A stretch of 64,000 bases of DNA, taken from NCBI RefSeq assembly GCF_027912495.1, contig NZ_CP115463.1, forward strand, positions 3,360,501 to 3,424,500, read 5' to 3'. Made by a program: the position numbers and the translations under genes. Each line of letters starts with the position of its first letter. Position 1 is the first letter of the stretch. The stretch is from Caulobacter sp. NIBR1757. GTDB taxonomy: Bacteria > Pseudomonadota > Alphaproteobacteria > Caulobacterales > Caulobacteraceae. The notes beneath the pieces are model-generated. The model ran no database searches. It was not told where the DNA came from and saw nothing but the letters and a program-made list of their open reading frames with translations. Of the stretch, positions 2,041-21,572 are shown piece by piece.

Positions 2041-2610
2041 TCAGCTCTTCAGGGCCTTGCGGGCGGCCAGGCCGTATTCGATCCCGGTCCAGATCGTGAC
2101 GGCGGCGGCCAGCCACAGCGACAGGTCGATGCCGAGGCTGACCGGACCCGTCATCCAGCCCGGCTGGGTCAGGCGCAGCAGGGCGGCGGCCAGGGCGACC
2201 AGTTGCAAGGTGGTCTTCCATTTGGCCAACATCGTCACCGGCAGGCGCAGGCCGCGCGGGGCCAGAACTTCGCGCAAGGCGCTGATCGAGAATTCGCGGA
2301 ACAGGATCAGGCCGCCGGTCAGGGCCGCCACATGGTCCCCGTTGATGGCCAGGCCGACGATGGCCCCGGCCACCAGCACCTTGTCGGCGATCGGATCGAG
2401 GATGGCCCCCGTCAGGCTCTCGACCTTGAACCTGCGGGCCAGCCAGCCGTCGAGGAAATCGGTGACCCCGGCGATGACAAAGCCCCAGAAGGCGAACCAC
2501 AGCAGCGGCGGCCCGGATGTGGGCATCGTCACCCCGGCCAGCAGGGCCAGGAAGACCAGCAGGGTCAGGACCAGACGGGCCAGGGTGATGATATTGGGGA
2601 CGTGCTTCAT
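2041..2610 (-). CDS. pgsA: CDP-diacylglycerol--glycerol-3-phosphate 3-phosphatidyltransferase
   Basis: A 189-residue membrane enzyme of the CDP-alcohol phosphotransferase family that makes phosphatidylglycerol phosphate, the committed step to phosphatidylglycerol and cardiolipin. The catalytic signature D-x2-DG-x2-AR-x8-G-x3-D-x3-D is intact at about residues 51-75 ('DFLDGWLARR...GAILDPIADK'). Hydrophobic segments lie at residues ~9-27, ~33-48, ~80-100 and ~140-175. The N-terminal 'KHVPNIITLARL' is typical of PgsA. It is the first gene on a minus-strand run and converges with the small gene ending at 2040 with no intergenic base. Confidence 0.95.
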   Translation of the reverse strand: MKHVPNIITLARLVLTLLVFLALLAGVTMPTSGPPLLWFAFWGFVIAGVTDFLDGWLARRFKVESLTGAILDPIADKVLVAGAIVGLAINGDHVAALTGGLILFREFSISALREVLAPRGLRLPVTMLAKWKTTLQLVALAAALLRLTQPGWMTGPVSLGIDLSLWLAAAVTIWTGIEYGLAARKALKS

Positions 2611-2664
2611 GGCTTCACCCTAACGCGCGACGGCGAACACCGCTGCGCTACTGGACGACGCCGC

Positions 2665-4884: not shown

Positions 4885-4977
4885 GATCGACTCCTCTGAG
4901 GAAAGAGAACTACGGCCATAGAAACTCAACAACCATAAGGCGTGACAATCACATGCTCGCTATCAGCGGGCCTGGGA

Positions 4978-5640
4978 TCACCAGCGCCGGACCGGGCCCG
5001 AGGTGACCGGCCGGCCGCCGCCCCAGCTGGCGCTCGGCGTTGGCGCTCCGGCCAGGGCCTCGAAGGCGGCGACGAAATCGGCTTCCTCGATCAGGTCGGG
5101 GGCCTGGAAGTAGCTGATGGTCAGGCCGGCCGTCAGGGCGTCGATGACCTTGACGAAGCGCTCGGCCGGCATCGGCAGGGAGCCGGCCGGCAGCAGGCGA
5201 CCGAAGCCGACCGCCATGCCGCGCCAGCCGCCGGCCGTCGCCTCGGCCTGGCGGGCGAGCAGGTCCGGCCGGGTCATCAGATGCAGCTGGATGGCCGAGG
5301 TCAGCACCCGCCGCTCCAGCCGCTTGCGGGCATGGGCATAGACCGCCTGGCCGAGCAGCCGCATCTGCACTTTAAGGGGCGCGCCGGGCTGGAACTGCAC
5401 CGACACCGGCGTCGTCTCCTGCTCCATGACGGCCAGGAACAGGGCGTCGCGGCTCTCGAAGTTGCCGTGGAAGGCGCCCCGCGTCATGCCGGCCCGGGCG
5501 CAGATCTCGTCGAGCGAGGTGCGGTCCCAGCCCTTTTCGGCGATCAGCTCGGCGGCGGCGGCGGCCAGGGCCTGGCGGGTGCGGGCCCGCTTGTCGCCCT
5601 TGGGGCGGGAGGCGGCGGAATCCCTGGCGGCGTCAGTCAT
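4978..5640 (-). CDS. TetR/AcrR family transcriptional regulator
   Basis: A 220-residue regulator. Residues ~18-65 form the TetR helix-turn-helix ('RARTRQALAAAAAELIAEKGW', 'TSLDEICARAGMTRGAFHGNF'), followed by a helical ligand-binding domain. The C-terminal tail (after ~residue 200) is low-complexity Gly/Arg. The frame continues upstream to 5793, but that part overlaps the end of the TonB-receptor gene, and the ATG at 5640 begins the normal TetR N-terminus. A dyad ATAC-N2-AT-N2-GTAT sits 10-23 bp upstream, so autorepression is likely. The regulated genes are not evident; both immediate neighbours are on the same strand. Confidence 0.9.
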   Translation of the reverse strand: MTDAARDSAASRPKGDKRARTRQALAAAAAELIAEKGWDRTSLDEICARAGMTRGAFHGNFESRDALFLAVMEQETTPVSVQFQPGAPLKVQMRLLGQAVYAHARKRLERRVLTSAIQLHLMTRPDLLARQAEATAGGWRGMAVGFGRLLPAGSLPMPAERFVKVIDALTAGLTISYFQAPDLIEEADFVAAFEALAGAPTPSASWGGGRPVTSGPVRRW

Positions 5641-5649
5641 GGCGGCTAC

Positions 5650-5663
5650 ATACGGATTGGTAT
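5650..5663. promoter_or_regulatory. Probable TetR operator dyad
   Basis: ATACGGATTGGTAT is a 14-bp interrupted palindrome (ATAC-N2-AT-N2-GTAT) immediately upstream of the tetR-type gene and next to an AT-rich stretch (TATATTTTAA at 5661-5670) that could contain the -10 region. Its position fits an autoregulatory operator. No binding evidence is available. Confidence 0.5.
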
Positions 5664-5698
5664 ATTTTAAGGCAACAGGTAATCCATCGTCACGGTGA

Positions 5699-7843: not shown

Positions 7844-7899
7844 TGGACAGGGCGCAATACGGCATTTCGGCGGCTCCTCAAGAGCGAAGCCTGCGAATT

Positions 7900-8571
7900 C
7901 TATCGTCCTGGAACGGTCGGTATCGCGGCGGGGAAGAAGACCACCTCCAGGGACCGGGTTTCGGGCAGGATGTAGACGACCCCGGTGGTGGCGGCGAACA
8001 GGCCGCGGACGACCAGGTCGTAGAAGGCCGGCGGGACATTGATGCAGCCGAAGGAGATCCGGTTGTCCAGGGCCGTCGGCGAGGCGAGCCGCTGGCCCCG
8101 GCGCTCCGACGGCGGTCCGACGACCACCGGGTGCAGCGAGATGGCGGCGTCGTAGTCGATCCAGAGGATGTCCTTGCCCGCCAGGTTGGCGCCGGGCGCG
8201 GCGACGAAGCGACCAGCCGGGGTGACCCGCTCGCTGGGCCCGATGCGGGACAGGGGCCGGTCGGCGAGGCCCGGAACCATATCGTCGCCCGGCTGGGCCC
8301 CGAGCAGCACCGGGGCCGTCCCGCCGAGCAGGCCCGCGCCATTGAAGGCGAAGACCCGGGCGGCGACCTTGTCGACGATCAGGAACGGCAGGCCCTGGTT
8401 GTCGCCGGTGGCGACGACCCAGGCCGCCAGGCGCCGGGTGTCGGCCGACGCCTTTTCGGTGTCCAGACTGGCCTGGCGGAACAGCGGCCGCCCCGCCGCC
8501 ATCGCCGCCCCCGGATGGACGGCCTGGATCAGCCCCAAGGCCAGGAGGGCGAGGACGGCGCGGCGGGCCAT
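7900..8571 (-). CDS. L,D-transpeptidase (YkuD) family protein
   Basis: A 223-residue exported protein with a signal peptide at residues 1-26 ('RRAVLALLALGLIQAV...AMAA'). The YkuD-type active-site segment is 'DNRISFGCINVPPAFYD' with the catalytic Cys at residue 176. The usual SHGC(x)R is SFGC(x)N here, a variant in which the His before Gly-Cys is replaced by Phe. Members crosslink peptidoglycan 3-3 or attach proteins to it. A second conserved element, 'RVTPAGRF' with 'SLHP', is present upstream. The ATG at 8571 overlaps the stop of the preceding TpsA-like gene as TGATG, so translation was probably coupled to the secretion locus. Confidence 0.8.
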   Translation of the reverse strand: MARRAVLALLALGLIQAVHPGAAMAAGRPLFRQASLDTEKASADTRRLAAWVVATGDNQGLPFLIVDKVAARVFAFNGAGLLGGTAPVLLGAQPGDDMVPGLADRPLSRIGPSERVTPAGRFVAAPGANLAGKDILWIDYDAAISLHPVVVGPPSERRGQRLASPTALDNRISFGCINVPPAFYDLVVRGLFAATTGVVYILPETRSLEVVFFPAAIPTVPGR

Positions 8572-9892
8572 CAGTTGCGGTCCTGCTTGGGCTTGTAGAC
8601 CGGAACCGTCGGCCGCGGCGCGACGGGCGCCGGTCCTGGAGCGACAACGGGCGGAGAGTCCAGCCCGGCTGGCGTCGGCGTCAGCGGAACCGGCGCCACC
8701 TCGGCGACCGGCATTTTGATGCCCTCGCCGAACACCACCAGATCGACGTCATTGTCGAGGGCCGCGATGATGACGATCGGTGTCGGCGTCGGCGACGACG
8801 GCTGGACCTGCGACACGACCACGGGGGGTGTTGCGGGCGGCGGCGGCGGCGGCGGGGGCGGCGCGGCGATGATCGTCCCGGTCGTGCGGAAGGTGGAGAC
8901 GCAGCAGGATCCGGCCAGGACGTACTGGTCGGCGTTGGGGCCGGCCAGGGTGTAGCCGCTGTAGGTGATGCCGACGCTGGTTCCGACGCCGGGGCTGTCG
9001 AAGGTGGCCACGGCGCCGGGGCCGGCGACGAGGGTGACGCCGACCGGCGCGCCCGAGCCAGGTGTCCTGTTGAAGCCGGTCAGGACCGTGGCGGTCGTGC
9101 CGTCCTCCACCCGTCCGCCGTTCGGAAACAGCAGCATCCGCTGGGTCAGGGTCGCGCCCTCGGTCAGGACGAAGTTGGTCGAGAAGTCGGTCGGCGCGGC
9201 GTAGGAAGCGGGGTTGTAGGCGATCGTGGTCGGGGCGACGGTCACCGTGGTCGGCGGCGCCAGCGGGCTGAAGATGATCGTCCCGCCGCCCACGCCGGGT
9301 CCGGTTCCGTCGGCCCCGGCGATCAGGGTCAGGCCGACGGGCAGGCCCAGGCTCTGGGCCGGAATGGTCGTGCCCCGCGTCAGGGTGACGGCGGCGTCGA
9401 TATGGACGTCGTGGCCGGCGCAGAGGGCGATGTTGCCGTCGGTGGTGGTGAGGGCGTGGAACACCCGAACGTCCCGACCGCCGGACAGCAGGATGCTGCC
9501 GTTGGTCGTGGTCAGCGGGGCATTGACGATCACATCGCGGCCGCAGCAGGCCAGGATGTTGCCGCGGGTGGCGGTGATCGGGGCGTTGATGACCAGGTCG
9601 CGCACGGCCAGGAAGGTCAGGGTGGTCGGCTCGCCCGAGGCGGTCCAGGCGATGGCGTCGTTGACGAAGATGTCGCCGGCCCCCGGCTGGGCGGCGCCCG
9701 GCCCGGTGACGGTGCCTGGGCCGCGAAGGCCAGCGGCAGGGAGGCGGCGAGGCCGAACAGGGCCAGTCGGGACAGGCGGCGCATCGGCGGCGGGCGGGGG
9801 GCGGCAGAACGGCCGGTCGGCAGATGGGCGGGGGAAATCATGGCGCTATCCTTGTCGAATTTGATCGGGGGGCGATCGCGGGGGGCGGGCAT
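8571..9892 (-). pseudogene. Frameshifted TpsA-like (filamentous haemagglutinin/adhesin-type) secreted protein
   Basis: The 5' part (ATG 9892) encodes a long basic N-region and a signal peptide ('RRLSRLALFGLAASLPLAFAA'). The frame then ends prematurely, while the -1 frame continues 'GTVTGPGAAQPGAGDIFVN' into a ~370-residue repetitive beta-helix-like body ('DLVINAPITATRGNIL', 'DVIVNAPLTTTNGSILL'), an MBG/YDG-like module, a proline run and a Pro-rich tail ending at 8571. Restoring one base near 9720-9730 joins the two. The N-terminal TPS secretion domain expected in TpsA proteins is not evident, suggesting an internal deletion as well. The start overlaps the stop of the TpsB remnant (TGATG), so this was a TpsB-TpsA operon. 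Confidence 0.65.
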
Positions 9893-10014
9893 CAGAACTG
9901 CTTGGTGATCTGGAACCAGGCGCGGCCGTCGGCGTCCGGGCCCGAGGTGGTCGCCGCGTCGCCCAGCTTGCGGGCGTAGGAAACGCTGACGATCAGCGCC
10001 TCGACCTGTTGCAC
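9892..10014 (-). pseudogene. 3' remnant of a ShlB/FhaC/HecB-type two-partner-secretion transporter
   Basis: The last ~40 codons read as a C-terminal outer-membrane strand: 'EALIVSVSYARKLGD', then 'ADGRAWFQITKQF' ending in Phe, as TpsB barrels do. The stop codon overlaps the ATG of the TpsA-like gene (TGATG). Further upstream the same frame is only the antisense shadow of the carboxymuconolactone decarboxylase gene, so the rest of the transporter has been lost. The assignment rests on the C-terminal pattern plus the adjacent TpsA-like gene. Confidence 0.5.
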
Positions 10015-10176
10015 CGGAACGTGCGCAAGTACGGGACGATCTCCAACACCGTGGCGGCGGCGCTGCCGTTGACCGGCACGATCCGCCGGCGCGGGTAGCG
10101 GCCGAGTGACGCCACGGCGCCGTTGCGCCGCGCCGGCGGCTGGCGCCTGATGGCGGAAAACCCGGAGGATCCGCCC

Positions 10177-10710
10177 ATGTCCCGCCTGCCGCTCGCCGAG
10201 CCCGACGCCCTGCCGCCCTACCTCAAGGCCATCCACGACGCGACGCCGGAGGAGAACTGGCTGGGCCGCAACTTTGCCAAGGCCTTCGCCCCGGCCCCGG
10301 ACCTGGTCCAGGCCTACCAGGCCTTCTACCACCCCTGGCACACGGGCGGCGCCGGCCTGCTGTCGGCCCGGCTGAAGGAACTGATCCGCCTGCGCATCGC
10401 CACCCTCAACGGCTGCGTGCTGTGCAAGAGCGTGCGCATGGCGCCGGACACGGTGAGCGAGGACGAGGCGGCGCGCGGCGTCGACGCGCCGGACGGGGAA
10501 GGCTTCACGGCGCGGGAGCGGGCGGCGATCCGCTTTGCCGAGAAGATGGCGGTGGATCACCACAACATCGACGACGAGGACGTGGCGGCGATGCGGGCGC
10601 TGTTCTCGGACGCGGAGTTCCTGGAGCTGTCGATGATGGCGGGGCAGTACATCGGGTTTGGGCGGGTGCTGGCGATGCTGCAGCTGGAGGTGGCCAGCTG
10701 CCCGATCTGA
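10177..10710 (+). CDS. Carboxymuconolactone decarboxylase (AhpD-like) family protein
   Basis: A 177-residue AhpD-fold protein. The family CxxC is 'NGCVLCKSVRM' (Cys80 and Cys83), but the His usually found three residues after the second Cys is Arg, so AhpD-type peroxidase chemistry may be altered. 'TARERAAIRFAEKMAVDHHNI' and 'EFLELSMMAGQYIGFGRVLAML' are the usual helices of this fold. ATG 10177 is chosen over 10123 because GGAGG at 10164-10168 gives 8-nt spacing and the family N-terminus begins there. The 3' half is duplicated as a decayed copy at 12516-12855. Confidence 0.9.
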   Translation: MSRLPLAEPDALPPYLKAIHDATPEENWLGRNFAKAFAPAPDLVQAYQAFYHPWHTGGAGLLSARLKELIRLRIATLNGCVLCKSVRMAPDTVSEDEAARGVDAPDGEGFTARERAAIRFAEKMAVDHHNIDDEDVAAMRALFSDAEFLELSMMAGQYIGFGRVLAMLQLEVASCPI

Positions 10711-10988
10711 CGGGGCGCCGCTATCGAAGCGGCAGACCATTGTACCAGCCGCGGCGCCCGCCAGGGTGTCAACGGCCCATCCGGGATTCCGGGGGCCCGG
10801 CGCCGGGCGGTGGGCAAGGCGCCTGAAATCGTTGAGGTTTGCGTGGCGCAGGGCGCGGGGAATGTGGGCGCCGGCGTAGGCGCGGCGTTGGCGCCGGGGC
10901 GGGGAATGTAGGCGCCGGGCGCGGCGCCGGCACCTACGCCGGGGCCGGCGGCGGCGTTTAGCGGCGTCCGGGGCCCGAAACCAAGATG

Positions 10989-11006
10989 AATATGTCTAGA
11001 CATATT
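10989..11006. promoter_or_regulatory. Perfect 18-bp palindrome, candidate operator
   Basis: AATATGTCTAGACATATT is a perfect AT-rich palindrome in a very GC-rich setting. It lies ~51 bp upstream of a -10-like GATAAT (11058-11063) and 113 bp upstream of the terminase-like gene. An extended copy occurs at 61958-61981. The GTCTAGAC core resembles operators of GntR-family repressors, but no cognate regulator was identified. Confidence 0.55.
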
Positions 11007-11057
11007 GCCCGGGGCCTTGGCGGGGCTGGTTTTTTCGCTGGCGCCAGGGCGGCGTGG

Positions 11058-11080
11058 GATAATGGTCTGCCGCTTCGATA
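11058..11080 (+). promoter_or_regulatory. Promoter-like motif: extended -10 followed by conserved leader
   Basis: TGG-GATAAT looks like an extended -10 box. It is followed six bases later by CCGCTTCGA. The same layout (TATAAT-N6-CCGCTTCGA) occurs on the minus strand at 61741-61761 upstream of dctA, in both cases about 56-60 nt before the start codon. No convincing TTGACA is present at -35. This is the outer half of the inverted repeat, so promoter and repeat-end interpretations overlap. Confidence 0.4.
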
Positions 11081-11119
11081 AGGCGGCCCCCTCCCCTCTT
11101 CGCCATCCCCGGAGCCGCC

Positions 11120-11731
11120 ATGACCGCGACAAACGCACCCTCGTCCCAGCCGCGCGCGCTGAGCCCCAGGCAGCTGCGGTTCGTGCAGGAACTGCGGCGC
11201 GACGGTCAGGCCACGCCGGCGGCGCGGCGCGCCGGCTACAGCCAGCGGTCCGCCCGCTGGGCCGCTTACCGGCTGATGCGCGATCCTCGCGTCCAGGCCC
11301 TGCTGGCGCCGCCGCCCGCCCCGGTCCCGAGCCCCGACCCGGACGCCTACGTCCCGGCCGACAAGGCGACCGGCGCCTGGGCCCTGGCCGAGTTGAAGGC
11401 GGTGGCCGCCGGCAACATCCTCGACTTCGCCATCGTGCGGCCGGACGGCGCCCTGGAGGTCGACCTGGCCCGGCTGGAGCGCAGCCGCACCGCCGCCGTG
11501 CGCGAGGTCACCGTCCTCGAGAAGATCGCGCCGGACGGCGCCGTCACCCGCCTCACCCGCCTGAAACTGGCCGACAAGTCCCTGGCCCTGTCGCGGCTGC
11601 TGCGGGCTGCCAACCTGCGGCTGGAGGGCCACCAGGAGGGCGTGTGGATGGGCCAGAACGCGGTGGCGCGGCTGGACGAGAAGAGGCTCCTGCGGTGGGT
11701 GAAGCGCAGGCGGGAGGAGGAGGGGCTGTGA
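11120..11731 (+). CDS. Orphan phage-type terminase small subunit-like protein
   Basis: A 203-residue protein whose N-terminal ~55 residues match the helix-turn-helix of terminase small subunits ('SPRQLRFVQELRRDGQATPA', 'ARRAGYSQRSARWAAYRLMR', 'DPRVQALLA'). A second part follows with 'ALAELKAVAAGNILDFAIVR' and 'ADKSLALSRLLRAANL', which fits the oligomerisation/C-terminal region of the same family. In phages this subunit recognises viral DNA for packaging. No large terminase, portal or capsid gene is nearby, so it is an orphan. The start has GGAG at 11111-11114 with 5-nt spacing. A domesticated DNA-binding protein or a prophage remnant are both possible. Confidence 0.75.
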   Translation: MTATNAPSSQPRALSPRQLRFVQELRRDGQATPAARRAGYSQRSARWAAYRLMRDPRVQALLAPPPAPVPSPDPDAYVPADKATGAWALAELKAVAAGNILDFAIVRPDGALEVDLARLERSRTAAVREVTVLEKIAPDGAVTRLTRLKLADKSLALSRLLRAANLRLEGHQEGVWMGQNAVARLDEKRLLRWVKRRREEEGL

Positions 11732-11785
11732 CGGGGATCGACGGGCGCGATTGCCGGGCCGGCGAACCGCGTTAGGCTGGCGCCC

Positions 11786-12214
11786 ATGCAGAGCCTCGCC
11801 CCCGCCTACCTCTCCGCCCTCGCCACCCAGCTGGGGGGCCTGAGCGCCTTCCTCGGCGGCTTCGCGGCGACCTTCCTGGGCACCTTGCTGGCCCTGGGCG
11901 GCCGGCGCCGGAGGACGACCGGCGTGGCCATCGGCTTCGCGGCCGCCGCCTCGGCCGCCTTCATCGTCTGCGTCGTGGCCTCGACGGCCCTGGTCGCCGT
12001 GCTCCACCCGGAGGCCCCGCAGGCCGCCCGCGCCATCGGCACGGACGGCGCCCGCGTCCTCCTGACCCTCAGCTTCGTCCTCGGCCTCTACACCCTGCTG
12101 GCCAGCCTGGGCCTCAGCGGCTGGTCCCGCTCCAGGAGCACGGGCCTGACGACCAGCATCGCGGCGGGGGTGGGGGCGGTGCTGGCGACGGGGCTGGTGT
12201 TGGCGATGGGGTGA
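11786..12214 (+). CDS. Hypothetical integral membrane protein (about four TM helices)
   Basis: A 142-residue, Ala/Leu-rich protein with predicted hydrophobic segments at about residues 8-36, 46-70, 88-112 and 120-141. It has a basic 'GGRRRRTTG' loop after the first segment, placing that loop in the cytoplasm. No family was recognised. It lies 54 bp after the terminase-like gene on the same strand in a region otherwise poor in conserved genes. Codon use is strongly GC-rich like the neighbours, so nothing marks it as recently acquired. Confidence 0.6.
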   Translation: MQSLAPAYLSALATQLGGLSAFLGGFAATFLGTLLALGGRRRRTTGVAIGFAAAASAAFIVCVVASTALVAVLHPEAPQAARAIGTDGARVLLTLSFVLGLYTLLASLGLSGWSRSRSTGLTTSIAAGVGAVLATGLVLAMG

Positions 12215-12296
12215 GGGGTGGGCGCGGGATTGGCGCGAGGCCCGCCCGCCGGCGAAAGCCGCGTGTCGGCCGGGCCCCGGGGTGTAGGCTCACCCC

Positions 12297-12485
12297 ATGC
12301 CCATCGACCTGCCCGAGCCGCCCCCGCCGCCGCACCCCGCCGACCTCATCAGCCAGGCGCTGGCCGACGGCCAGGCCGCGATCGACCACCTGAAAGCCGC
12401 CGCCTCGGGCAGCACCGACGCCGCCGAGGCCCTGGCGGATCTGGCGCGGCTGGCGGGTGAGGGGGCGGGGGTGGAGGGGGACTGA
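12297..12485 (+). CDS. Small hypothetical protein (62 aa)
   Basis: A short frame beginning with 'MPIDLPEPPPPPHPADLISQ' and continuing as an Ala-rich amphipathic helix ('ALADGQAAIDHLKAAASG'). It starts 82 bp after the membrane-protein gene and ends just before the decayed decarboxylase copy. There is no clear Shine-Dalgarno sequence and no recognised family. The charge periodicity of the helix and position in line with the two upstream genes make it plausible but unproven. Confidence 0.35.
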   Translation: MPIDLPEPPPPPHPADLISQALADGQAAIDHLKAAASGSTDAAEALADLARLAGEGAGVEGD

Positions 12486-12515
12486 CGCCGGCGGGGCTGG
12501 CGACCGCGGTCTCGC

Positions 12516-12855
12516 CTGAAGGCGCCGATCCGGCTGCGCATCGCCACCCGGGGCGGCTGCGTGCTGTGCAAGAGCGTACGCATGGCGCTCAGACACGGTG
12601 AGCGAGGACGAGGCGGCGCGCGGCGTCGACGACCCGGACGCGGAGGGCTTCACAGCGCGGGAGCGGGCGGCGATCCGCTTTGCCGAGAAGATGGCGGTGG
12701 ATCACCACAACATCGGCGACGACGACGTGGCGGCGATGCGGGGGCTGTTCTCGGACGCGGAGTTCCTGGAGCTGTCGATGATGGCGGGGCAGTACATCGG
12801 CTTCGGCCGGGTGCTGGCGATGCTGCAGCTGGAGGTGGCGAGTTGTCCGGTGTGA
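12516..12855 (+). pseudogene. Decayed second copy of the carboxymuconolactone decarboxylase gene
   Basis: This stretch matches the 3' half of the gene at 10177-10710. From 12594 to the TGA at 12853-12855 it is nearly the same base for base and encodes 'TARERAAIRFAEKMAVDHHN' and the final ASCPV. Upstream, the CxxC segment (CVLCKSVRMA) is still legible, but a one-base insertion near 12588-12592 puts it in a different frame, and before about 12515 the similarity fades. No start codon in frame gives the full domain. It is best read as an old duplication, partly refreshed at the 3' end, now untranslatable as a whole. It stops 5 bp from the BRCT gene's stop codon. Confidence 0.85.
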
Positions 12856-12860
12856 GGGGT

Positions 12861-13466
12861 TTACCCGAGGTGTTCGGCCCAATGCTGTTCCGAGACGATG
12901 GCGATGGGCTTGCCCTCGTCTCGCCATTCCGTAGCCCGAATAATCTTGTTGCCGAATGAGGAATGTTTCCAAGACTCGGTCGCGTAGGCTCCGATGACTA
13001 GGACCTGGGTTTTCTGTGTGAGGCTACCCGCTACGCCGCCCCGATCTGCTACGGCTTGCTCACAGTGTTTTCGCTGACCGAAGAGGAAGGTGCCTGTGAA
13101 ACTGTACGTGATCCCTTGAAACGTTAACGGCGGGGCCGGGTCGCACAAAGGAAGCGTCGACGATTTCAGTACCTCGCCAAGTTCAAAGTCACGGTCGGAA
13201 AAGCTGTTCAATGTTTCCAGCAGTGCCGTTTTTTCCTCAGCATCCAGAATCCCATCCGCGAGGACGTCATTGATGCGCTGGTAGAGGGTCCGAATTACCG
13301 GTTGCTCACTAATCGAGAGATTTGCGGCCAGCCATTTTTGGAGGAACTGGACCTCCGCGATGTTGAGGTCGCCGTCTGCTGCGATCCCACGCGCAAGTCC
13401 GATTAGTTCGTCAATTTGACGAGATGTAAGCCGATCGCCTCCAAGGCGATTGAGCAACTCATCCAT
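12861..13466 (-). CDS. BRCT-domain protein with N-terminal TerB-like helical domain
   Basis: A 201-residue protein. Residues ~1-100 are helical with 'GLARGIAADGDLNIAEVQFL' and 'INDVLADGILDAEEKTALL', a pattern like TerB/tellurite-type acidic helical domains. Residues ~115-195 form a BRCT domain of the DNA-ligase type ('SFTGTFLFGQRKHCEQAV', 'DRGGVAGSLTQKTQVLVIG', then a C-terminal 'PIAIVSEQHWAEHL'). BRCT domains bind DNA ends or phosphopeptides. The start lies 12 bp after the stop of the giant helicase gene, with AAGGGAG as ribosome-binding site overlapping that stop, so the two form an operon. Its G+C is visibly lower than the flanks. Partnership in defence or repair is inferred from the operon. 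Confidence 0.85.
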   Translation of the reverse strand: MDELLNRLGGDRLTSRQIDELIGLARGIAADGDLNIAEVQFLQKWLAANLSISEQPVIRTLYQRINDVLADGILDAEEKTALLETLNSFSDRDFELGEVLKSSTLPLCDPAPPLTFQGITYSFTGTFLFGQRKHCEQAVADRGGVAGSLTQKTQVLVIGAYATESWKHSSFGNKIIRATEWRDEGKPIAIVSEQHWAEHLG

Positions 13467-13478
13467 TGTTATACTCCC

Positions 13479-16400
13479 TTAGGAAAAATGGTCCCTAACG
13501 TAGTCTGCGACTTGGCTCAGCGGTATTTCCGGCGAAGATGCGCCGGCTCTGACGATCAAGCGCTCCACAGGCGGGCCATTGGTCTCCGAAAGGGCCAAAT
13601 AAGTCGGCGTGCGGGACCGCTTCACATCGACCCGGCAGATCAATTGGTCGCCCAGGATCGGATAGCTCACCGATACGCAGCCCGCCCGGAAGCCTTCCGA
13701 GAACCGGTCCTTGATCAGATTAGTCAGATGAAGTTCGAAGCGATCGCGAATACCACCAAAGCTGTCGAGGTCTGGTTCCAAGCCACGCACGACGCCATCA
13801 TCGCTCACTCCGATCAGCAACGTGCCGCCGCGGTGATTGGTGAAGGCTGCGATCGCCTTCATGGCTGCGTCTTCGAGTTTCCGATTGATCGTGCCCTGGC
13901 GCAAATCCCACCTCAGTGTTTCCTTGAACTCCAGCCGCTCGCCCTCTCCTTCCGCGATCAAAGTTTCGAGGGAGGCCTTCTCCGGTTCGCGTCGTTGCTC
14001 CGGGGCATTAGGGCCGACGTCAATCAGAGTATCTCTCCGGATCAGAACGTCGCGTTCCAACGCGCGATTCAAGACGTCAGCCAGCACCTCACGAAGTTGA
14101 GCGCTGGTTGCCTTGAACCCGAGGGCGCGAGCCACCGCCTGGAAGGCCTGTTCTTCCGTAGCGCCGAAGTTTCGAGAGACGATCTGGATCAGTCCGCATT
14201 CAATCTCGGTCGGCGGTAGCATGTCAGGCCGGCGCAAAGTCGCAGAAGCCGCAACGCTGCGATCCCTCACCTTTATCTGAGCGCCAGGGATCGAAAGGAA
14301 TTCACCGTCGGCGATAATCCGCCCCTGGCGACGTGATACCTCGACCGCACGTCGAATCGCCTCACGAATTCGCCCACCAGCCCGTCCAGCGCCCCACGCC
14401 GTACGAATCCTGACGACGACCTCATCGAAATGAACTGGCCCTTCGCCTTCGACAACAGCCTCGGCGAGCTGGGACAAGATGCCGGTCGGCGCCTCATGTA
14501 TTTCGACATAGACATGCGATGGTCTGACAACGGGAACCTCGACATAGGCTACCGACAAGCCGGCGTCGGCCTCAGAAACGCCAACCAGCCCCATCTCCGT
14601 GACGTCCTCCCTTTCGACCGAGATGATTTCATAGGCAGGTAGCCGGGCCGCCGCTGCCACTCCTTCTCGAGCAAGCTCGACCTTGGCCGCCTCAACGGCG
14701 GCAATGACTCTGTCCAGTTGCTCCTGTGGGCGTTTGAACCAGTCTCCGCTCCAGATGCGATGGACGAACCAACCCTGCCCTTCCAACACGCTTCGGCGAA
14801 GGCGGTCACGATCACGCGCCGACCTCGCGCCGCGATAGGACGGTCCGTCGCATTCCACCGCCAGCAGATACCGATCCGGATGGTCCGCCGAGGCGATGGC
14901 GATGTCCACAAACAGGCCGGAGACTCCGACATTCCGATGGACCTGAAAGCCCCGAGCGTGAACGGCTTGGGCCACTTCATCCTCGAACACGGACTGTCGA
15001 TCCCGCCCGACCGACTCCGCCAGTGACATTCGCCCGGTCCGGGCGAAATGCATGAACAATTTCAGGGCGAAGACACCCTTGCGAGACGATGCGAAGTCCG
15101 GATCGATGTCTTCGTCGGTCATCGACGAGAAAACCTCGCATCGCCGCTTTGCGCGGCTGATCAGGACGTTCAATCGACGCTCACCGCCCTCCTGGCCTAC
15201 CGGGCCAAAGCGCATGGGCGGCCGGGCGCCGAGGGCCGTCGGTCCGTAGCCAATCGAAATCAGAATGACATCCCGTTCGTCGCCCTGGACGTTTTCCAGG
15301 TTCTTCACGAAGAACGGCTCCGTTGGGTGAGCCTGAAAGAAGGCCTCGTCAGCGGCCGACAGCTGGCGACGCATCAGTTCAAGTTGCTCAAGAATCGCCT
15401 TTCGCTGAGCAACCGAGAAGGCGACAACTCCAAGAGACAGTTCGGGCGTCGTTTTGGCGTGATGGATGATGGCACCGGCAACAACCTTGGCCTCGACCGG
15501 GTTGGTCCGGGTCGTGCCCGTTTCGAAGACGCCATTCTTCACGTGATGGAAGCGCAGGCCGAGCCCCGACTGCGCCGTGTAGGGGCTCGGTATGATGACC
15601 AGCTTGTTCTCATAGAACTGCCGGTTGGAGATCGCGATCAACGACTCATGCCGGCTGCGATAGTGCCAGCGCAACATACGGGTCGGCAGGCCCCGAGCCG
15701 TGAACAGACCCAGGATGCTTTCGATATCGGCGACCTTTGCCGCGCCATCATCGTCGTCGCCGTCCGCCTGGCCGGTCATCTTTGAGAAGAAGGAGGTTGG
15801 CGGAAGCTGCTGCGGATCGCCGACAACGACGACTTGGCCGCACCGAGCGATAGCGCCCAACGCATCCACCGGCTGAATCTGGCTGGCTTCGTCCATGACC
15901 AGCAGGTCGAACTTCAACGCACCGGGCGGCAGGAACTGAGCGACAGAAAGCGGGCTCATCATGAAGACCGGCTTCAGGGCCTGAACAGGCTGCGCAGCCT
16001 TCTGCATCAACTGCCGTATCGGCATGTGACCGCGCCTACGTGCCATTTCCGACTTCAGAACCCCGAGCGGTCCCACGGCTCCACCGCCAACTGGCGGCAT
16101 ACGCTGGTGATGCATTCGCGCAACCTGGCCGGCAGCGGCGCGGATGCGCTGGCGATCGAGGTCGACGAACTCGCGCACCCGTCGGCCGTGGATTTCCCCA
16201 TCGAATGTTGCGAGCTCGGGATCGGCGTCTATCTGCTGCTCTAAAACTGCCTCGAAGAATGCCTGCTCGAAGTCGCCGCGCGCCGCGGCCGGCGGCAGGG
16301 TTCCATCGTGAAGCCGGGCGACAAGGTCGCCAAGGCCAAGCGAGATCGCTTCACGCGCCCTGGCGCGATAGCCAACCCAGGACGTCAGCGCCTCACCACC

Positions 16401-19400
16401 ATCCCGCCAGGCAGCGAGATTTTCCGCGAGGTCCGTGGTGGGCGCATCACGCAGGAACTTTGGTGTCACGATGGCTTCCGGTGTCGCCTTCATATCCGTC
16501 AGCAAGGTTTCACTGGCTGCGATCCATTGATCGCGCGACGCCACGGCAGCTTCGGCCCGGGCCTTCAGCCCGCTCCTGTCCGCGACTCGCGCGGCAAGTT
16601 GGCGAATGTCGCCATTCGCGACCAGCCAATCGGCGGCGGAAGTCAGTTCGACCCAATCCGATTTCAGGCCAAGCCAGTTTCCTGCGAAGGCGAGACTTGC
16701 GATGTCCTCACCCAAGACGACTTCGGCACCGGCAGCCTGGCCAGTCGCCAGATCGTCCAGAGCTTCGCGTCGTCGACTGAACGACGCGTCCGGCTCAAGG
16801 CTCAGTTCATTCGTAGCCTGGTAGGCATGGGCCACCGCCCCACAGGTTTTGATAGCGTTGGCAAGATCCGCCTCGTCAGGACCTGCCGCTGCGCCAAAAA
16901 TAGCCGACCGGCCGGCTCCAGTCTCATCCCACAGTGGGGACAGGGCAGTTCGCAAGCCGTCCACCTCGGCGGTCAGCGCTTTCGAAAGGTCATCCAGTCT
17001 GCGTCTATCGGGGCGTGAGCCCATGATCATCCGGGGTTCGGCGCCCAATCCCCGCAAACTCCGCATCCATTCCACCAAGGCCTGCAGCGGCGCGGAGGCG
17101 GACCGCTCGCCTCGCCAGTCGCCTGCAAACGCCGTCCGCCCGAAGTCCGCCTCGTCGCTGATCAGCTTCAGCGCCGTTTGCCCCTTGAAGAGCGCATCCA
17201 GTAACGCCAGGCGGCTCTGCAGCGGAGCTTTTGGGTTCGACTGGAAAGAGCGAACCAGTCGGTCGGCGGCGCGCCACTCGCCACTGAAAAAGCGGAAGAA
17301 GGAACTACCGTGCGCCGCCAGGACGCCTCGTTCCCCGACCAAGTTCGCCGACCAGGCGCCGTCGCTTAGTCCGCCGCTGAGCTCACCGCGCGCGTCTTCC
17401 AAGGCTTTTACCGCACCGGCCAGATCGGCTGCACGCTCTACGCCGCTGTCCCACAGGTCTTGCGCGAAGGCGACCGGGTCCGCCTCGGGCGCGTGGGCGA
17501 CCCTTTCGCCAACCCTGGCCAAGACCTCCAAGTCCCGGATTGTCTCCGGCGCTTCCTGCCGACCGACCGCCTCGGCGAGACGTCGCCCTTGCTCCAAGGC
17601 TGTCTGCGCCCGCGCCGCAACGGCGGCGGCATGGCCGAAGGCCGTGACCGGAGTCCAAGTATCAAGGGGGGCCAAGGTTGATCGGATTTGGTCGAGCGGG
17701 ACCTCCCAAGCCATCTCCCTGAAGACCGGTGCAAGCTTCTCCTTCAGCGACGCGTATCGGGCTCCCGATGACAGGATGCTCCGGATCTCCTCCGGCCTGC
17801 TCCAGGCGTCTGCCGAGAAGGCGGTAGATTGCAGAGCCGGGGCTGTCGCCAGGCGACCCGCCAGCGCGGCAAACTTTGACAGCGTGCTCAAAGCTTCCGG
17901 CGCATCGCTTTCAAGCGCGACAGATATGGCCAAGCTCTCGTCACGGAGCGCCACAAGGTGGTCATAGAGGGCCGAGAGGCGTGCCTCGATCCGCGCCACG
18001 TCTGTCGGGATGGCTCGGTCCAACTCGACCCCGCGCCAAAGGTGGCGACCGGGCGCGCCTAGGTCTACGACCCGTTCCGCCAGCTCGTCGATCAGGCGGG
18101 ACCTCTGCTCGAAATTCTCCTGCGTCCAGCCTTCAACCCCTTCGAGGTCCAAGTAACCCGGCCTGACGCTGGCCTGCTTCAATCGAACAAGGTGGCCGAT
18201 CACGTCATAGGGCGTGAGGGAGGCGGACCCGACTGGAGAATGAATGCGCTCGGCATGATCGTTCAGATGATCTCGCGCCTCGGTAAGGCGCGCGGTCAAC
18301 GCGTCGAGGTTCTCCACGCGAGGCGCACCGAGCTCCCAGGTGCGCCTGAGCTCTTCCAGAACGGCTCGCTTGTTTGCCTTGTTGCTGTGGAGCTCGAGAC
18401 AGGCGTCTCCAACACCCGTCGAATCCAAGCGACGCTTGACGACTTCAAGCGCGGCCATCTTCTCGGCCACGAACAGCACGGTCTTACCGTCGGCCACCGC
18501 CGATGCGATGATATTGGCGATTGTCTGAGACTTGCCGGTTCCGGGCGGTCCCTGGATCACCAGGTCGCGGCCGCGTCGAACCTCCTCGACGGCGAGGGTC
18601 TGAGAGCTGTCGCTGTCGACGATGTGAATCATGTCGGCGGGCGAGATGTTGGCGTCTATCGACTCATCTTCGGACACCATTGGCTCTCCCTCAGGAAAGC
18701 CATCGGACACCAGAGGCCGGATCAACGGATGATCGACAAGCTTTGAGCCAGGAGGCCAAGTCTGTGCGTCCAGGTCGCGGTACATCAGGAATTTAGCGAA
18801 CGAAAAAAAGCCAAGGACGATGTCGTCTTCGTTTACCGACCAGCCGGTCTTGACGGAAACAGCTTCAGCCACCGACGCGGCGTAGGCTGAGGGATCAAAA
18901 TCATCACCGGCCTCAAAAGTCGGCAACTTGAGTCCGTGAACGCGGTCAAGATAGGCCTCGAGGGACAGGTTAGCGGCGAAGTCTTCCGGTCTCGCCCGAA
19001 GCTTGAACTTTTCCGCCGCGTTACCGCGTTCAAGCTCTACAGGGATGAGGATCAACGGCGCGTAGCGGACCGCCGTCGCATTGTTCGGGTCGATCCATTT
19101 CAATGTTCCGATGGCCAGGAACAGGATGTTGACGCCCTGCTCTTCCTCAAGCGTGCGGGCATCGTAGTAGAGATCGAGCAATTTTTTTTGCAGACCGGCC
19201 GGCGTCAGACGTGTCTGGAGGCGGGTGTCGGCATGTCTGTTGGCGATGCCGCGGGCATCCACGCCGTCATCTTCTGGCTGAGCGAGTTCAAGGATTTCGC
19301 CATCCTCGTCATCGGCATCGGGTTTTGCGCCCTTGCCTGGCAGGAAGGTGAACGCCTTGTTCTCCTTCACGAGCAGCCGAAAGACCTCTGCTCCCCGCTC

Positions 19401-19577
19401 ATCGACGATCTCCAGAGTCTTCGCACTCTTCGCGGATCGCGGAATATTTAGCAGCCTGTTTCGCGCCGACAGGTCCAGAAGCTCGGTCCTGGCCTTCTCA
19501 AGTTTGGCGTCGAGCGGCAGATCGCTCTCGAAAATAGATACCGGTTCGGTCGCCGGTTGCGCGGTCGCATCAGTCAT
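13479..19577 (-). CDS. Giant DUF4011 / SF1 helicase / Vsr-like nuclease / DUF3320 / AlbA_2 protein (defence-type)
   Basis: A 2032-residue multidomain protein. Order by eye: DUF4011 at the N-terminus ('KARTELLDLSARNRLLN'); SF1 helicase Walker A 'GPPGTGKSQT' near residue 345; a long insertion; Walker B 'DLLVMDEASQ' near 1225; motifs 'RWHYRSRHESL' (~1305), 'NVQGDERDVILIS' (~1430) and 'LNVLISRAKRR' (~1470); a Vsr/DUF559-type PD-(D/E)xK nuclease ('FVDIAIA...AVECDGPSY', ~1550-1600); a DUF3320-like winged segment (~1690-1770); and a Schlafen-type AlbA_2 domain ('LEFKETLRWD...HRGGTLLIGVSDDG', ~1870-2032). Similar helicase-Vsr proteins are reported in anti-phage surveys. ATG 19577 is preferred over 19604 (G-rich SD). 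G+C is lower than the flanks; it directly follows uvrC. Confidence 0.88.
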   Translation of the reverse strand: MTDATAQPATEPVSIFESDLPLDAKLEKARTELLDLSARNRLLNIPRSAKSAKTLEIVDERGAEVFRLLVKENKAFTFLPGKGAKPDADDEDGEILELAQPEDDGVDARGIANRHADTRLQTRLTPAGLQKKLLDLYYDARTLEEEQGVNILFLAIGTLKWIDPNNATAVRYAPLILIPVELERGNAAEKFKLRARPEDFAANLSLEAYLDRVHGLKLPTFEAGDDFDPSAYAASVAEAVSVKTGWSVNEDDIVLGFFSFAKFLMYRDLDAQTWPPGSKLVDHPLIRPLVSDGFPEGEPMVSEDESIDANISPADMIHIVDSDSSQTLAVEEVRRGRDLVIQGPPGTGKSQTIANIIASAVADGKTVLFVAEKMAALEVVKRRLDSTGVGDACLELHSNKANKRAVLEELRRTWELGAPRVENLDALTARLTEARDHLNDHAERIHSPVGSASLTPYDVIGHLVRLKQASVRPGYLDLEGVEGWTQENFEQRSRLIDELAERVVDLGAPGRHLWRGVELDRAIPTDVARIEARLSALYDHLVALRDESLAISVALESDAPEALSTLSKFAALAGRLATAPALQSTAFSADAWSRPEEIRSILSSGARYASLKEKLAPVFREMAWEVPLDQIRSTLAPLDTWTPVTAFGHAAAVAARAQTALEQGRRLAEAVGRQEAPETIRDLEVLARVGERVAHAPEADPVAFAQDLWDSGVERAADLAGAVKALEDARGELSGGLSDGAWSANLVGERGVLAAHGSSFFRFFSGEWRAADRLVRSFQSNPKAPLQSRLALLDALFKGQTALKLISDEADFGRTAFAGDWRGERSASAPLQALVEWMRSLRGLGAEPRMIMGSRPDRRRLDDLSKALTAEVDGLRTALSPLWDETGAGRSAIFGAAAGPDEADLANAIKTCGAVAHAYQATNELSLEPDASFSRRREALDDLATGQAAGAEVVLGEDIASLAFAGNWLGLKSDWVELTSAADWLVANGDIRQLAARVADRSGLKARAEAAVASRDQWIAASETLLTDMKATPEAIVTPKFLRDAPTTDLAENLAAWRDGGEALTSWVGYRARAREAISLGLGDLVARLHDGTLPPAAARGDFEQAFFEAVLEQQIDADPELATFDGEIHGRRVREFVDLDRQRIRAAAGQVARMHHQRMPPVGGGAVGPLGVLKSEMARRRGHMPIRQLMQKAAQPVQALKPVFMMSPLSVAQFLPPGALKFDLLVMDEASQIQPVDALGAIARCGQVVVVGDPQQLPPTSFFSKMTGQADGDDDDGAAKVADIESILGLFTARGLPTRMLRWHYRSRHESLIAISNRQFYENKLVIIPSPYTAQSGLGLRFHHVKNGVFETGTTRTNPVEAKVVAGAIIHHAKTTPELSLGVVAFSVAQRKAILEQLELMRRQLSAADEAFFQAHPTEPFFVKNLENVQGDERDVILISIGYGPTALGARPPMRFGPVGQEGGERRLNVLISRAKRRCEVFSSMTDEDIDPDFASSRKGVFALKLFMHFARTGRMSLAESVGRDRQSVFEDEVAQAVHARGFQVHRNVGVSGLFVDIAIASADHPDRYLLAVECDGPSYRGARSARDRDRLRRSVLEGQGWFVHRIWSGDWFKRPQEQLDRVIAAVEAAKVELAREGVAAAARLPAYEIISVEREDVTEMGLVGVSEADAGLSVAYVEVPVVRPSHVYVEIHEAPTGILSQLAEAVVEGEGPVHFDEVVVRIRTAWGAGRAGGRIREAIRRAVEVSRRQGRIIADGEFLSIPGAQIKVRDRSVAASATLRRPDMLPPTEIECGLIQIVSRNFGATEEQAFQAVARALGFKATSAQLREVLADVLNRALERDVLIRRDTLIDVGPNAPEQRREPEKASLETLIAEGEGERLEFKETLRWDLRQGTINRKLEDAAMKAIAAFTNHRGGTLLIGVSDDGVVRGLEPDLDSFGGIRDRFELHLTNLIKDRFSEGFRAGCVSVSYPILGDQLICRVDVKRSRTPTYLALSETNGPPVERLIVRAGASSPEIPLSQVADYVRDHFS

Positions 19578-19664
19578 CGCGTCCCCCCCATGCAACCATT
19601 GCATGAGGAGACGACGGTTCGTCCATTAAAGATTTACGGAGAAGGCCTTGCGGACGGCTCCCCC

Positions 19665-21572
19665 TCACTTCCTGAAAAAATCAAACACCCTTCGCGCCAG
19701 CGGCTCGTTCACCCCCGCCACCTTCATCAGGTCCTCCACGCTCGCCCGGCTCACCCCCCGCGCGGACCCGAACGCATGCAGCAGGGCCTTCTTCCGCCCC
19801 GGGCCGACGCCCTCGATCTCGTCCAGCGGGTTCTTGACCATCTCCTTACTGCGCTTGGCCCTGTGGGTGCCGATGGCGAACCTGTGGGCCTCGTCCCTCA
19901 GGCGCTGGAGGTAGTAGAGGATCGGGCTGCGGGGTTCGAGCATGAAGGGGGCGGCGGCGCCGGGGAGGAAGAAGCGTTCCAGGCCGGCGTCGCGGTCGGG
20001 GCCCTTGGCGACGCCGACCACGGGGATGTCGTCGACGCCGAGGTCGGCCATGATTTCCAGGGCGACGCTGAGCTGGCCGGCGCCGCCGTCGAGGAGGACG
20101 AGGTCGGGGCGGGGGGCGGAGACGTCGCCGCCGGCTTCCTCCTCCTTGACCAGGCGAGAGAAGCGGCGGCGCAGGACCTCCTTCATCATGCCGAAGTCGT
20201 CGCCGGGGGTGAGGTCCGTGCCCTTGATGTTGAACTTGCGGTACTGGTTCTTCTGGAAGCCCTCCGGGCCGGCGACGATCATGCCGCCCACCGCGTTGGT
20301 GCCCATGATGTGGCTGTTGTCGTAGACCTCGATGCGCTCGGGCGGGCCGTCGAGCTTGAAGGCCTCGGCGACGCCGGCCAGCAGCTTGGCCTGGGCGCTG
20401 CCCTCGGCCATGCGGCGGCCAAGCGCCTCGCGGGCGTTGGTCAGGGCCTCGTCGACCAGGCCGCGCTTTTCGCCGCGCTGGGGTTTGGCGATCTCGACCT
20501 TGCGGCCGCCCTTCATGCTGAAGGCCTCTTCCAGCAGTTCGATCTCGAAGGGGGCGTGGGAGACGAGGATCAGCTTGGGGATGGGCTTGTCGTCGTAGAA
20601 CTGGCCGATGAAGGCGCCCATGACCTCGGCGTCGGTGTCGGATTTGTCGATGCGGGGGAAGTAGGCGCGGTTGCCCCAGTTCTGGCCGGCGCGGAAGAAG
20701 AAGACCTGGACGCAGGCCTGGCCGCCCTCGGCGTGGAGGGCGAAGACGTCGGCCTCCTCCAGGGTCTCGGGGTTGACGGTGGTTTCCTGGGCGACGGAGG
20801 CCAGGGCGCGGATGCGGTCGCGCAGGCGGGCGGCGAGCTCGAACTCCATGTCGTCGGAGGCGGCCTGCATCTGTTCGCTCATGCGGGCCATGACGGCGCG
20901 GGACTTGCCGCGCAGAAAGGCCTCGGCCTCGTCGACGAGCAGGGCGTAGTCGTCGGCCGCGATCAGGCCGGTGCAGGGGGCGGCGCAGCGGCGGATCTGG
21001 TGCAGCATGCAGGGGCGGGTGCGGGAATCGTAGACGCTGTCGCTGCAGGAGCGGATCAGGAAGGCCTTCTGCAGGGTGTTGAGCGTGCGGTTGACGGCGC
21101 CGGCGCTGGCGAAGGGGCCGAAGTAGTCGCCCTTGATCGTGTGGGCGCCGCGGTGCTTGCGCAGCTGCGGGGCGGCGTGGTCGCGGCGGATGACGATCTC
21201 GGGGAAGGACTTGTCGTCGCGTAAGAGGACGTTGAAGCGGGGCTTCAGCTGCTTGATCAGGTTGATCTCGAGCAGCAGGGCGTCGGTCTCGGTGCGGGTG
21301 GAGGCGAACTCCATCGAGCGGGTGAGATCGACCATGGTGGCGATGCGGTTGGTGTGGAAGCGGCCCTGCGCGTACTGGATGACGCGCTTTTTCAGGGAGC
21401 GGGCCTTGCCGACGTAGAGGCATTCGCCGTCCTCGCCGTACATGCGGTAGACGCCCGGGGCGTCCGGCAGGCGGGCGGCGTGGAACTTGATCAGTTCGGC
21501 GGCGCGGAGGGCTGCGGCCTCCGTGACGGGCAGGTGGTTGTCGGGGGTGGGGGTGTCGGTCGGGTCGCTCAC
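19665..21572 (-). CDS. uvrC: Excinuclease ABC subunit C
   Basis: A 635-residue nucleotide-excision-repair nuclease that makes the dual incision after UvrAB damage recognition. The GIY-YIG domain begins at ~residue 37 ('[20 protein letters not shown]'). A Cys-rich segment near residue 175 ('[19 protein letters not shown]') and a UVR interaction motif near 220-255 follow. The RNase-H-like nuclease ('[18 protein letters not shown]', '[12 protein letters not shown]') and a terminal helix-hairpin-helix pair ('[18 protein letters not shown]') complete it. Full length for the family. The lower-GC defence-type operon starts 88 bp beyond its 3' end on the same strand. Confidence 0.97.

Follow-up and report, generated by a model that had tools for sequence, protein, structure and literature searches.

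The locus considered here raises two questions: whether a very large helicase-nuclease gene and the small gene behind it form an acquired anti-phage system, and what the small protein would add. The window, i.e. the whole stretch of DNA analysed, comprises 64,000 nucleotides of Caulobacter sp. NIBR1757 (contig NZ_CP115463.1, positions 3,360,501 to 3,424,500), and the two genes occupy positions 12861 to 19577 on its minus strand. The reading preferred here, with slightly better than even confidence, is that they constitute an acquired ProA-type anti-phage helicase-nuclease operon with a recruited, phage-borne accessory, a TerB-BRCT protein predicted to sense DNA ends. Judging from the sequences, an anti-phage role of the operon is likely; the accessory role of the small protein is what we infer. 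The results in support of this reading include the pairing of the two genes at different sites within the genus, other defence genes 3' of uvrC in related genomes, and invariant helicase and nuclease motifs. ProA with a C-terminal AlbA_2 domain and a recruited TerB-BRCT gene is, in our reading, a new variant within a known family. Among the matches listed from the open-licence PMC literature, the passages mention neither a ProA with AlbA_2 or a TerB-BRCT partner nor a TerB-BRCT gene beside Shango.

The giant and its small partner

The features of the operon are as follows.

12861..13466, minus strand: TerB-BRCT accessory gene, 201 aa, PHROG 3989 (profile match E 4.1e-58)
12879..13130, minus strand: BRCT domain with T124, G125, R132 and K174 (profile, alignment, fold)
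13197..13424, minus strand: predicted helical, TerB-like half; ADGxxNxxE-type motif at D31..E38 and again at D71..E78 (alignment, model; Pfam TerB only 0.084)
13474..13480, minus strand: Shine-Dalgarno-like AAGGGAG, overlapping the TAA stop of the giant
13479..19577, minus strand: ProA-type giant gene, 2032 aa (NCBIfam ProA and PADLOC PDC-S37 scores)
13533..13946, minus strand: C-terminal Schlafen/SAMD9-like SLFN_AlbA_2, residues 1878-2015 (Pfam E 1.9e-10; 7/23 aligned sequences)
14361..14504, minus strand: DUF3320, residues 1692-1739 (Pfam E 9.8e-15; 23/23)
14697..14987, minus strand: MTES_1575 Vsr-like nuclease, residues 1531-1627 (Pfam E 2.3e-30; 23/23)
15117..15929, minus strand: SF1 helicase part 2, residues 1217-1487, with DEAS box, GDP..LPP and motifs V and VI (Pfam, alignment)
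15978..18290, minus strand: long insertion between the helicase parts, about residues 430-1200 (limits approximate)
18378..18611, minus strand: SF1 helicase part 1, Walker A GPPGTGKS at residues 343-350 (Pfam; Walker A invariant 23/23)
18948..19484, minus strand: DUF4011, residues 32-210 (Pfam E 1.3e-42; 23/23)

An earlier note, made from the letters alone, had described a giant of 2032 residues tightly linked by 12 bp to a BRCT-protein gene, with a Shine-Dalgarno sequence overlapping the giant's stop. The open reading frames, both on the minus strand, and the AAGGGAG motif agree with this; an in-frame ATG upstream of the giant's start would give an alternative length of 2041 aa. DUF4011, the split SF1 helicase, DUF3320 and AlbA_2, all named in the note, were recovered by the Pfam HMM search. 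The helicase parts, matched by AAA_11 and AAA_12, are separated by about 800 residues, and the long insertion between them has no Pfam match of its own. Of the proposed Vsr/DUF559-type nuclease the Vsr-like half held (MTES_1575), but DUF559 stayed below its cut-off (0.001). A passage of PMC3710099 names the MTES_1575 Vsr-type nuclease and gives a winged helix that overlaps DUF3320.

The note had given the family name as Hhe. The giant aligns with the Hhe model (NCBIfam NF042953), which has DUF4011 in its name, over a long alignment in three stretches, but it scores 1028.3 bits against a cut-off of 2000, and membership was rejected: it is a cousin. The family assignment is instead ProA (NF058533, 'anti-phage protein ProA'), whose core architecture it shares and whose curated cut-off of 1500 bits it passes with 1552.5 bits. 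The best PADLOC model is the candidate PDC-S37 (1816.5 bits). ProA is, at a guess, the Prometheus of DefenseFinder, a system named without description in the literature passages. All features that we list for the ProA type (DUF4011, SF1 motifs, MTES_1575, DUF3320 and the conserved residues) are present, the list being our own and not the model's definition. A sequence search of the PDB with the giant returned seven matches, all helicases or RecA fusions.

Relatives of the giant at E 1e-100 or better were found in 24 of 199 sampled family genomes, most of them more distant (35-51% identity), in two pieces or partial. For the alignment, the window sequence was combined with 22 relatives (23 sequences; of 23 contig-scan loci, the frame-broken L018 was dropped). 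The cores of Walker A, the DEAS box, motifs V and VI and the nuclease signature are invariant across it, and the nuclease residues D1558 and E1575-C-D1577-G, on whose conservation the note had made its proposal depend, do not vary in any of the 23.

The tail of the giant differs from the ProA model, whose last matched residue is 1822. Its SLFN_AlbA_2 score is 41.7 bits against a cut-off of 25.3. Among the 23 aligned giants the domain is found in seven, namely all four from Caulobacteraceae and three of six in a mostly Sphingomonas clade, a pattern that needs two changes on the tree; G188, of the same genus, has a giant relative with no match to the tail. The tail thus appears, from these comparisons, to be an add-on of the family acquired in this lineage. 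In L015 and L020 it is seemingly a separate gene just downstream of the giant. The model of the last 392 residues matched DIP2311 (1.5e-5), SAMD9 with DNA (2.6e-5), the SAMD9 tRNase domain (6.8e-5) and Schlafens 14 and 13 (3e-4) in a Foldseek-type comparison, and the SLFN12 profile match was weak (0.0036). The likeness to Schlafen and SAMD9 AlbA_2 lies in the fold; here, however, the domain stands at the C-terminus of a helicase-nuclease, and catalysis is putative. The residues G-E-x4-E-F-K and D-D are invariant in all seven sequences; their equivalence to the Schlafen triad is our own reading, the HMMER alignment being shifted. At L020, the AlbA-type gene (13611-16247) right behind the AlbA-less giant also has an NTPase-like part, as judged by eye.

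The small protein has two parts. Its BRCT half, which the note had named, is weak in Pfam (0.033, under the cut-off) but firm by family profiles (RFC1 BRCT 2.6e-9, LigA 6.1e-6) and by fold. The TerB-like N-terminal half had been missed. The profile of PHROG 3989, whose function is listed as unknown, covers both halves (residues 15-200). A model of the protein (pLDDT 80.3) gave LigA as the only Foldseek match below 0.001 (1.4e-4), followed by RFC1 (1.9e-3) and others; searching the PDB with the protein sequence by itself gave weak matches (LigA 0.0054, calmodulin 0.03, RFC1 0.37). T124, G125, R132 and K174 are invariant in 13 of 13 sequences and align with T, G, R and K of RFC1. These positions of the RFC1 BRCT are presumably its 5'-phosphate pocket. 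By fold and by the T-G, R and K positions, the BRCT of the small protein is predicted to be of the RFC1 type. Of the solved structures, RFC1 and LigA come closest to it in profile and fold, but the window protein has no ligase or clamp-loader part and carries the TerB-like half instead.

The place between uvrC and pgsA

The operon is bordered by the following features.

2041..2610, minus strand: pgsA (name by eye), the neighbour of uvrC where the interval is empty
12592..12859, plus strand: second, truncated copy of the gene at 10123-10710, bordering the operon on the right
19665..21572, minus strand: uvrC, on the strand of the giant, bounding the variable interval on the left

The giant begins 87 bp behind uvrC. 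Helicase, nuclease and BRCT are parts of repair proteins too, and so close a placement on one strand would suit a housekeeping DNA-repair operon tied to uvrC. This is highly improbable. The AlbA-type giant turned up in just three genomes of the genus when 390 from the family were searched; several relatives have uvrC and pgsA side by side; the same place is taken by other defence genes elsewhere; and in G591 and G606 the giant/TerB-BRCT pair is far from uvrC. A core repair operon was rejected given the rarity of the giant in the genus, the adjacency of uvrC and pgsA in relatives and the variability of the place.

The variability was surveyed in the genus. uvrC was present in 59 of 61 genomes searched; 50 stretches were fetched, and 47 contain the end of uvrC, three of which (L119-L121) extend beyond it for less than 2 kb or not at all. 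The fetched stretch includes pgsA in 23 of the 47, at 18-210 bp in nine and 2.8-7.8 kb in fourteen; the gap in the window is 17.1 kb (2610-19665). Ten proteins from six intervals chosen by eye were then scanned against PADLOC and Pfam. In five of the six, PADLOC matches were obtained directly 3' of uvrC: in L118 (11409-17658) Mokosh A (1.1e-236) and B (2.5e-87), accompanied by a SIR2-domain gene on the opposite strand; in L164, L145 and L168 type IIG enzymes, joined in L168 by Mrr; and in L163 a type II methyltransferase together with a GHKL ATPase. The sole match in L147 was Pfam Abi_C, barely above the cut-off. By eye, L138 has an apparent remnant end of a type IIG gene. This marks the 3' end of uvrC as a place to look for Caulobacter defence systems.

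Other claims of the note concerned the island itself. The G+C content is indeed lower in the operon than in its flanks (0.57-0.67 per kb across 13-20 kb against 0.66-0.77 across 1-13 kb and 20-40 kb). A decayed duplication was also borne out: positions 10447-10714 and 12592-12859 are 94% identical, the gene being AhpD-like by eye and the second copy partial. In the nearest relative, L117, one single stretch matches both copies, and the operon's place holds other genes beside it. The proposal of a defence family in an acquired position accords with the ProA score and the variable uvrC interval. Core positions without a BRCT neighbour had been named as evidence to the contrary; the relatives do mostly lack the BRCT gene, but the position here is variable, not core. 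On the other side, a passage of PMC10250203 reports that all P. aeruginosa isolates of its set have a large DUF4011 gene, of the ProA type or not, as a core gene flanking a defence hotspot. No obvious direct repeats at the operon ends (12400-20100) were seen among the 20 listed of 51 repeat families, the longest of these being 27 nt at 74%.

TerB-BRCT genes in bacteria and phages

The note had proposed a survey of homologues for co-occurrence of the BRCT gene. This did not reveal a fixed partner: a full TerB-BRCT match is missing from 22 of the 23 genomes whose giants were fetched, two of the 22 having short partial matches near 1e-6, and the BRCT gene as a fixed component of ProA was rejected. 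G143 and G027 are likewise without it, but they were judged to be the genomes of L012 and L024 and do not enlarge the count. What emerged is a mobile gene also found with other defence operons and in temperate phages. Of the 390 family genomes, 11 have TerB-BRCT and five the AlbA-type giant. Within the genus the two co-occur, adjacent, in the same three genomes (G000, G591 and G606); the hypergeometric probability of this overlap is 1.6e-4, kinship being ignored.

In three of the eight other family genomes TerB-BRCT lies behind a Shango system, at 9, 202 and 212 bp from SngC. The components were matched by profile in L259 (SngA 1.7e-74, SngB 3.1e-171, SngC 7.9e-231) and L261 (SngA 1.6e-82, SngC 1.3e-237; SngB was not scanned), while L260 was read from its like layout alone, with no profile scan. 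Elsewhere in the family, TerB-BRCT stands behind an AAA_27 ATPase that has no PADLOC match, with a PDC-S37 giant nearby on the other strand (L257 6257-17619); in another genome it immediately precedes an Mrr gene of the same orientation, and in a third it diverges from an SF1 helicase gene, with a UvrD/PD-(D/E)xK pair alongside. Of the two remaining genomes, one has it close to a mutL-like gene and the other as a fragment with stops. On plasmids it was matched in 7 of 72,556 records. One of these, from Hymenobacter, has SngA (9.8e-37), SngB (8.4e-167) and SngC (1.5e-206) followed by TerB-BRCT 64 bp on; a second plasmid with Shango adjoining TerB-BRCT was not found among five records. Wider samples gave 3 of 385 genomes in the class and 15 of 398 in the phylum, the window's own and G049 included in the latter.

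Passages of PMC10250203 describe Shango as three genes (TerB-like, ATPase and helicase), and PMC10952713 lists TerB, in the passage available, in Shango and Bunzi. The likeness of the window locus to Shango lies in the TerB-BRCT gene behind SngC in three family genomes and the Hymenobacter plasmid; SngA, SngB and SngC were all absent from the PADLOC scan of the two window proteins. The window's TerB-BRCT is 76% identical to a Shango-linked copy and 76% to a ProA-linked one. From these sequences the gene seems to have changed partners, in an order that the tree does not give.

Among 50,697 phage records, 17 have TerB-BRCT, and the contexts of 12 were examined. In the Vibrio phages K139, Kappa and VPUSM 8 it is found between cI and the exclusion gene glo, and the VPUSM 8 record carries the annotation 'orf 2; involved in phage exclusion'. 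K139 orf2 belongs to the same PHROG 3989 family as the window protein but has 301 aa, with an extra N-terminal stretch resembling a TerB repeat. In the Pseudomonas phages Marin, phi1, FBPa47, U7 and phPA-G the gene is directly behind a repressor-like gene, and in PG1 one gene further. It follows an integrase and a BamE/SmpA-like gene in Lodos and D14L, and in the Sulfurimonas phage SNW-1 it and CII are divergently oriented, a thermonuclease gene coming after it. In IMG/VR, 57 of the 63 loci L179-L241 were counted (L231-L234, L236 and L238, short or partial, were dropped): a Marin-like CI is upstream in 36, an integrase in seven and neither in 14, most being near-copies. A copy 70% identical to the window's was found on a viral contig where genes resembling terS, terL, portal and HNH were recognised by eye. 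On another viral contig (L229, 4001-4870), a TerB-BRCT protein has, by eye, an apparent second BRCT domain at its end.

Such contexts suit an independent one-gene phage-exclusion cassette, parked 3' of defence operons and sharing their mRNA without working with ProA. TerB-BRCT also occurs alone and in phages behind a repressor gene, its neighbours come from different defence families, and the VPUSM 8 annotation speaks of exclusion directly. This account is nevertheless rather unlikely. In three Caulobacter genomes 3-21 bp separate ProA from a TerB-BRCT gene behind it on the same strand, and in G1022 the distance from SngC is 9 bp, a close placement that suggests coupled expression, and the ProA/TerB-BRCT pair recurs at different sites in different genomes.

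The BRCT likeness to DNA-end binders and the carriage by phages would fit masking as well as sensing. TerB-BRCT might then restrain its neighbour, covering host DNA ends or binding the nuclease so that the chromosome is spared, and act as counter-defence in phages. That is distinctly unlikely: most of the examined phages have the gene among repressor or integrase genes, and the persistence of ProA relatives without TerB-BRCT in 22 of 23 genomes gives no sign that restraint is generally needed.

The proposed mechanism and the points against it

Under the preferred reading of an acquired ProA-type operon with a recruited accessory, ProA would be an ATP-driven SF1 helicase or translocase that moves on phage DNA and cuts it with the Vsr-like PD-(D/E)xK nuclease, as its family and motifs suggest. 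The AlbA_2 tail, given the fold resemblance, may provide another arm, akin to SAMD9/Schlafen, that binds nucleic acid or acts as an RNase. The 12-bp spacing points to TerB-BRCT being made together with ProA by coupled translation. TerB-BRCT would then act as a DNA-end sensor or loader, its BRCT binding phage DNA at 5'-phosphorylated ends or gaps and its TerB-like half relaying the signal to the helicase; in prophages TerB-BRCT may serve superinfection exclusion. A broader and more tentative proposal, possible but held with less than even confidence, is that TerB-BRCT is a portable DNA-end-sensing module, carried by temperate phages for superinfection exclusion and plugged in by bacteria 3' of anti-phage operons unrelated to one another (ProA, Shango, AAA_27 ATPase) or beside Mrr, where it would direct or boost the helicase or nuclease. 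The probabilities behind the preferred reading and its three rivals were rounded and add up to slightly more than one.

A number of results weigh against the preferred reading. Most relatives manage without the added parts (22 of 23 genomes without a full TerB-BRCT match, 16 of 23 giants without AlbA_2), so neither TerB-BRCT nor AlbA_2 is needed for the function of the ProA family. In L104 the neighbour of TerB-BRCT is a mutL-like gene, and by eye no defence gene was recognised around it. Four of the five plasmid contexts, all but Hymenobacter, have no recognised defence neighbour, and in ten contexts from the phylum no defence system was recognised by eye, no profile scan having been made. 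The association of TerB-BRCT with defence is strong in this family but, because of these plasmid and phylum contexts, not universal. Most of the longer uvrC-pgsA intervals, among those listed and as judged by eye, hold metabolic or transport genes; the interval is consequently a variable place but a defence hotspot only in part. The branching around the window copy in the TerB-BRCT tree is not resolved, and K174 is replaced by T in L078, a relative outside the 13. The structural models are of limited quality: pTM is 0.53 for TerB-BRCT, the model of the giant's tail is moderate (pLDDT 73.5, pTM 0.47), and the other four models of the giant have pLDDT 50-62. The best fold match of the tail, DIP2311, is a bacterial protein of unstated function. 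Scans for promoters (one found, 1.0 in shuffles) and terminators (seven, 5.8 in shuffles) were not above chance.

If TerB-BRCT is a shared accessory, it would link ProA and Shango, thought to be separate, with phage-encoded exclusion. If the proposal is true, it would give a testable answer to how helicase-nucleases recognise foreign DNA, via free 5'-phosphorylated ends or gaps.

Genes resembling the terminase small subunit, as judged by eye, lie near the defence genes both at 11120-11731 (plus strand) of the window and at 17738-19225 of L118, each the only phage gene recognised at its place.

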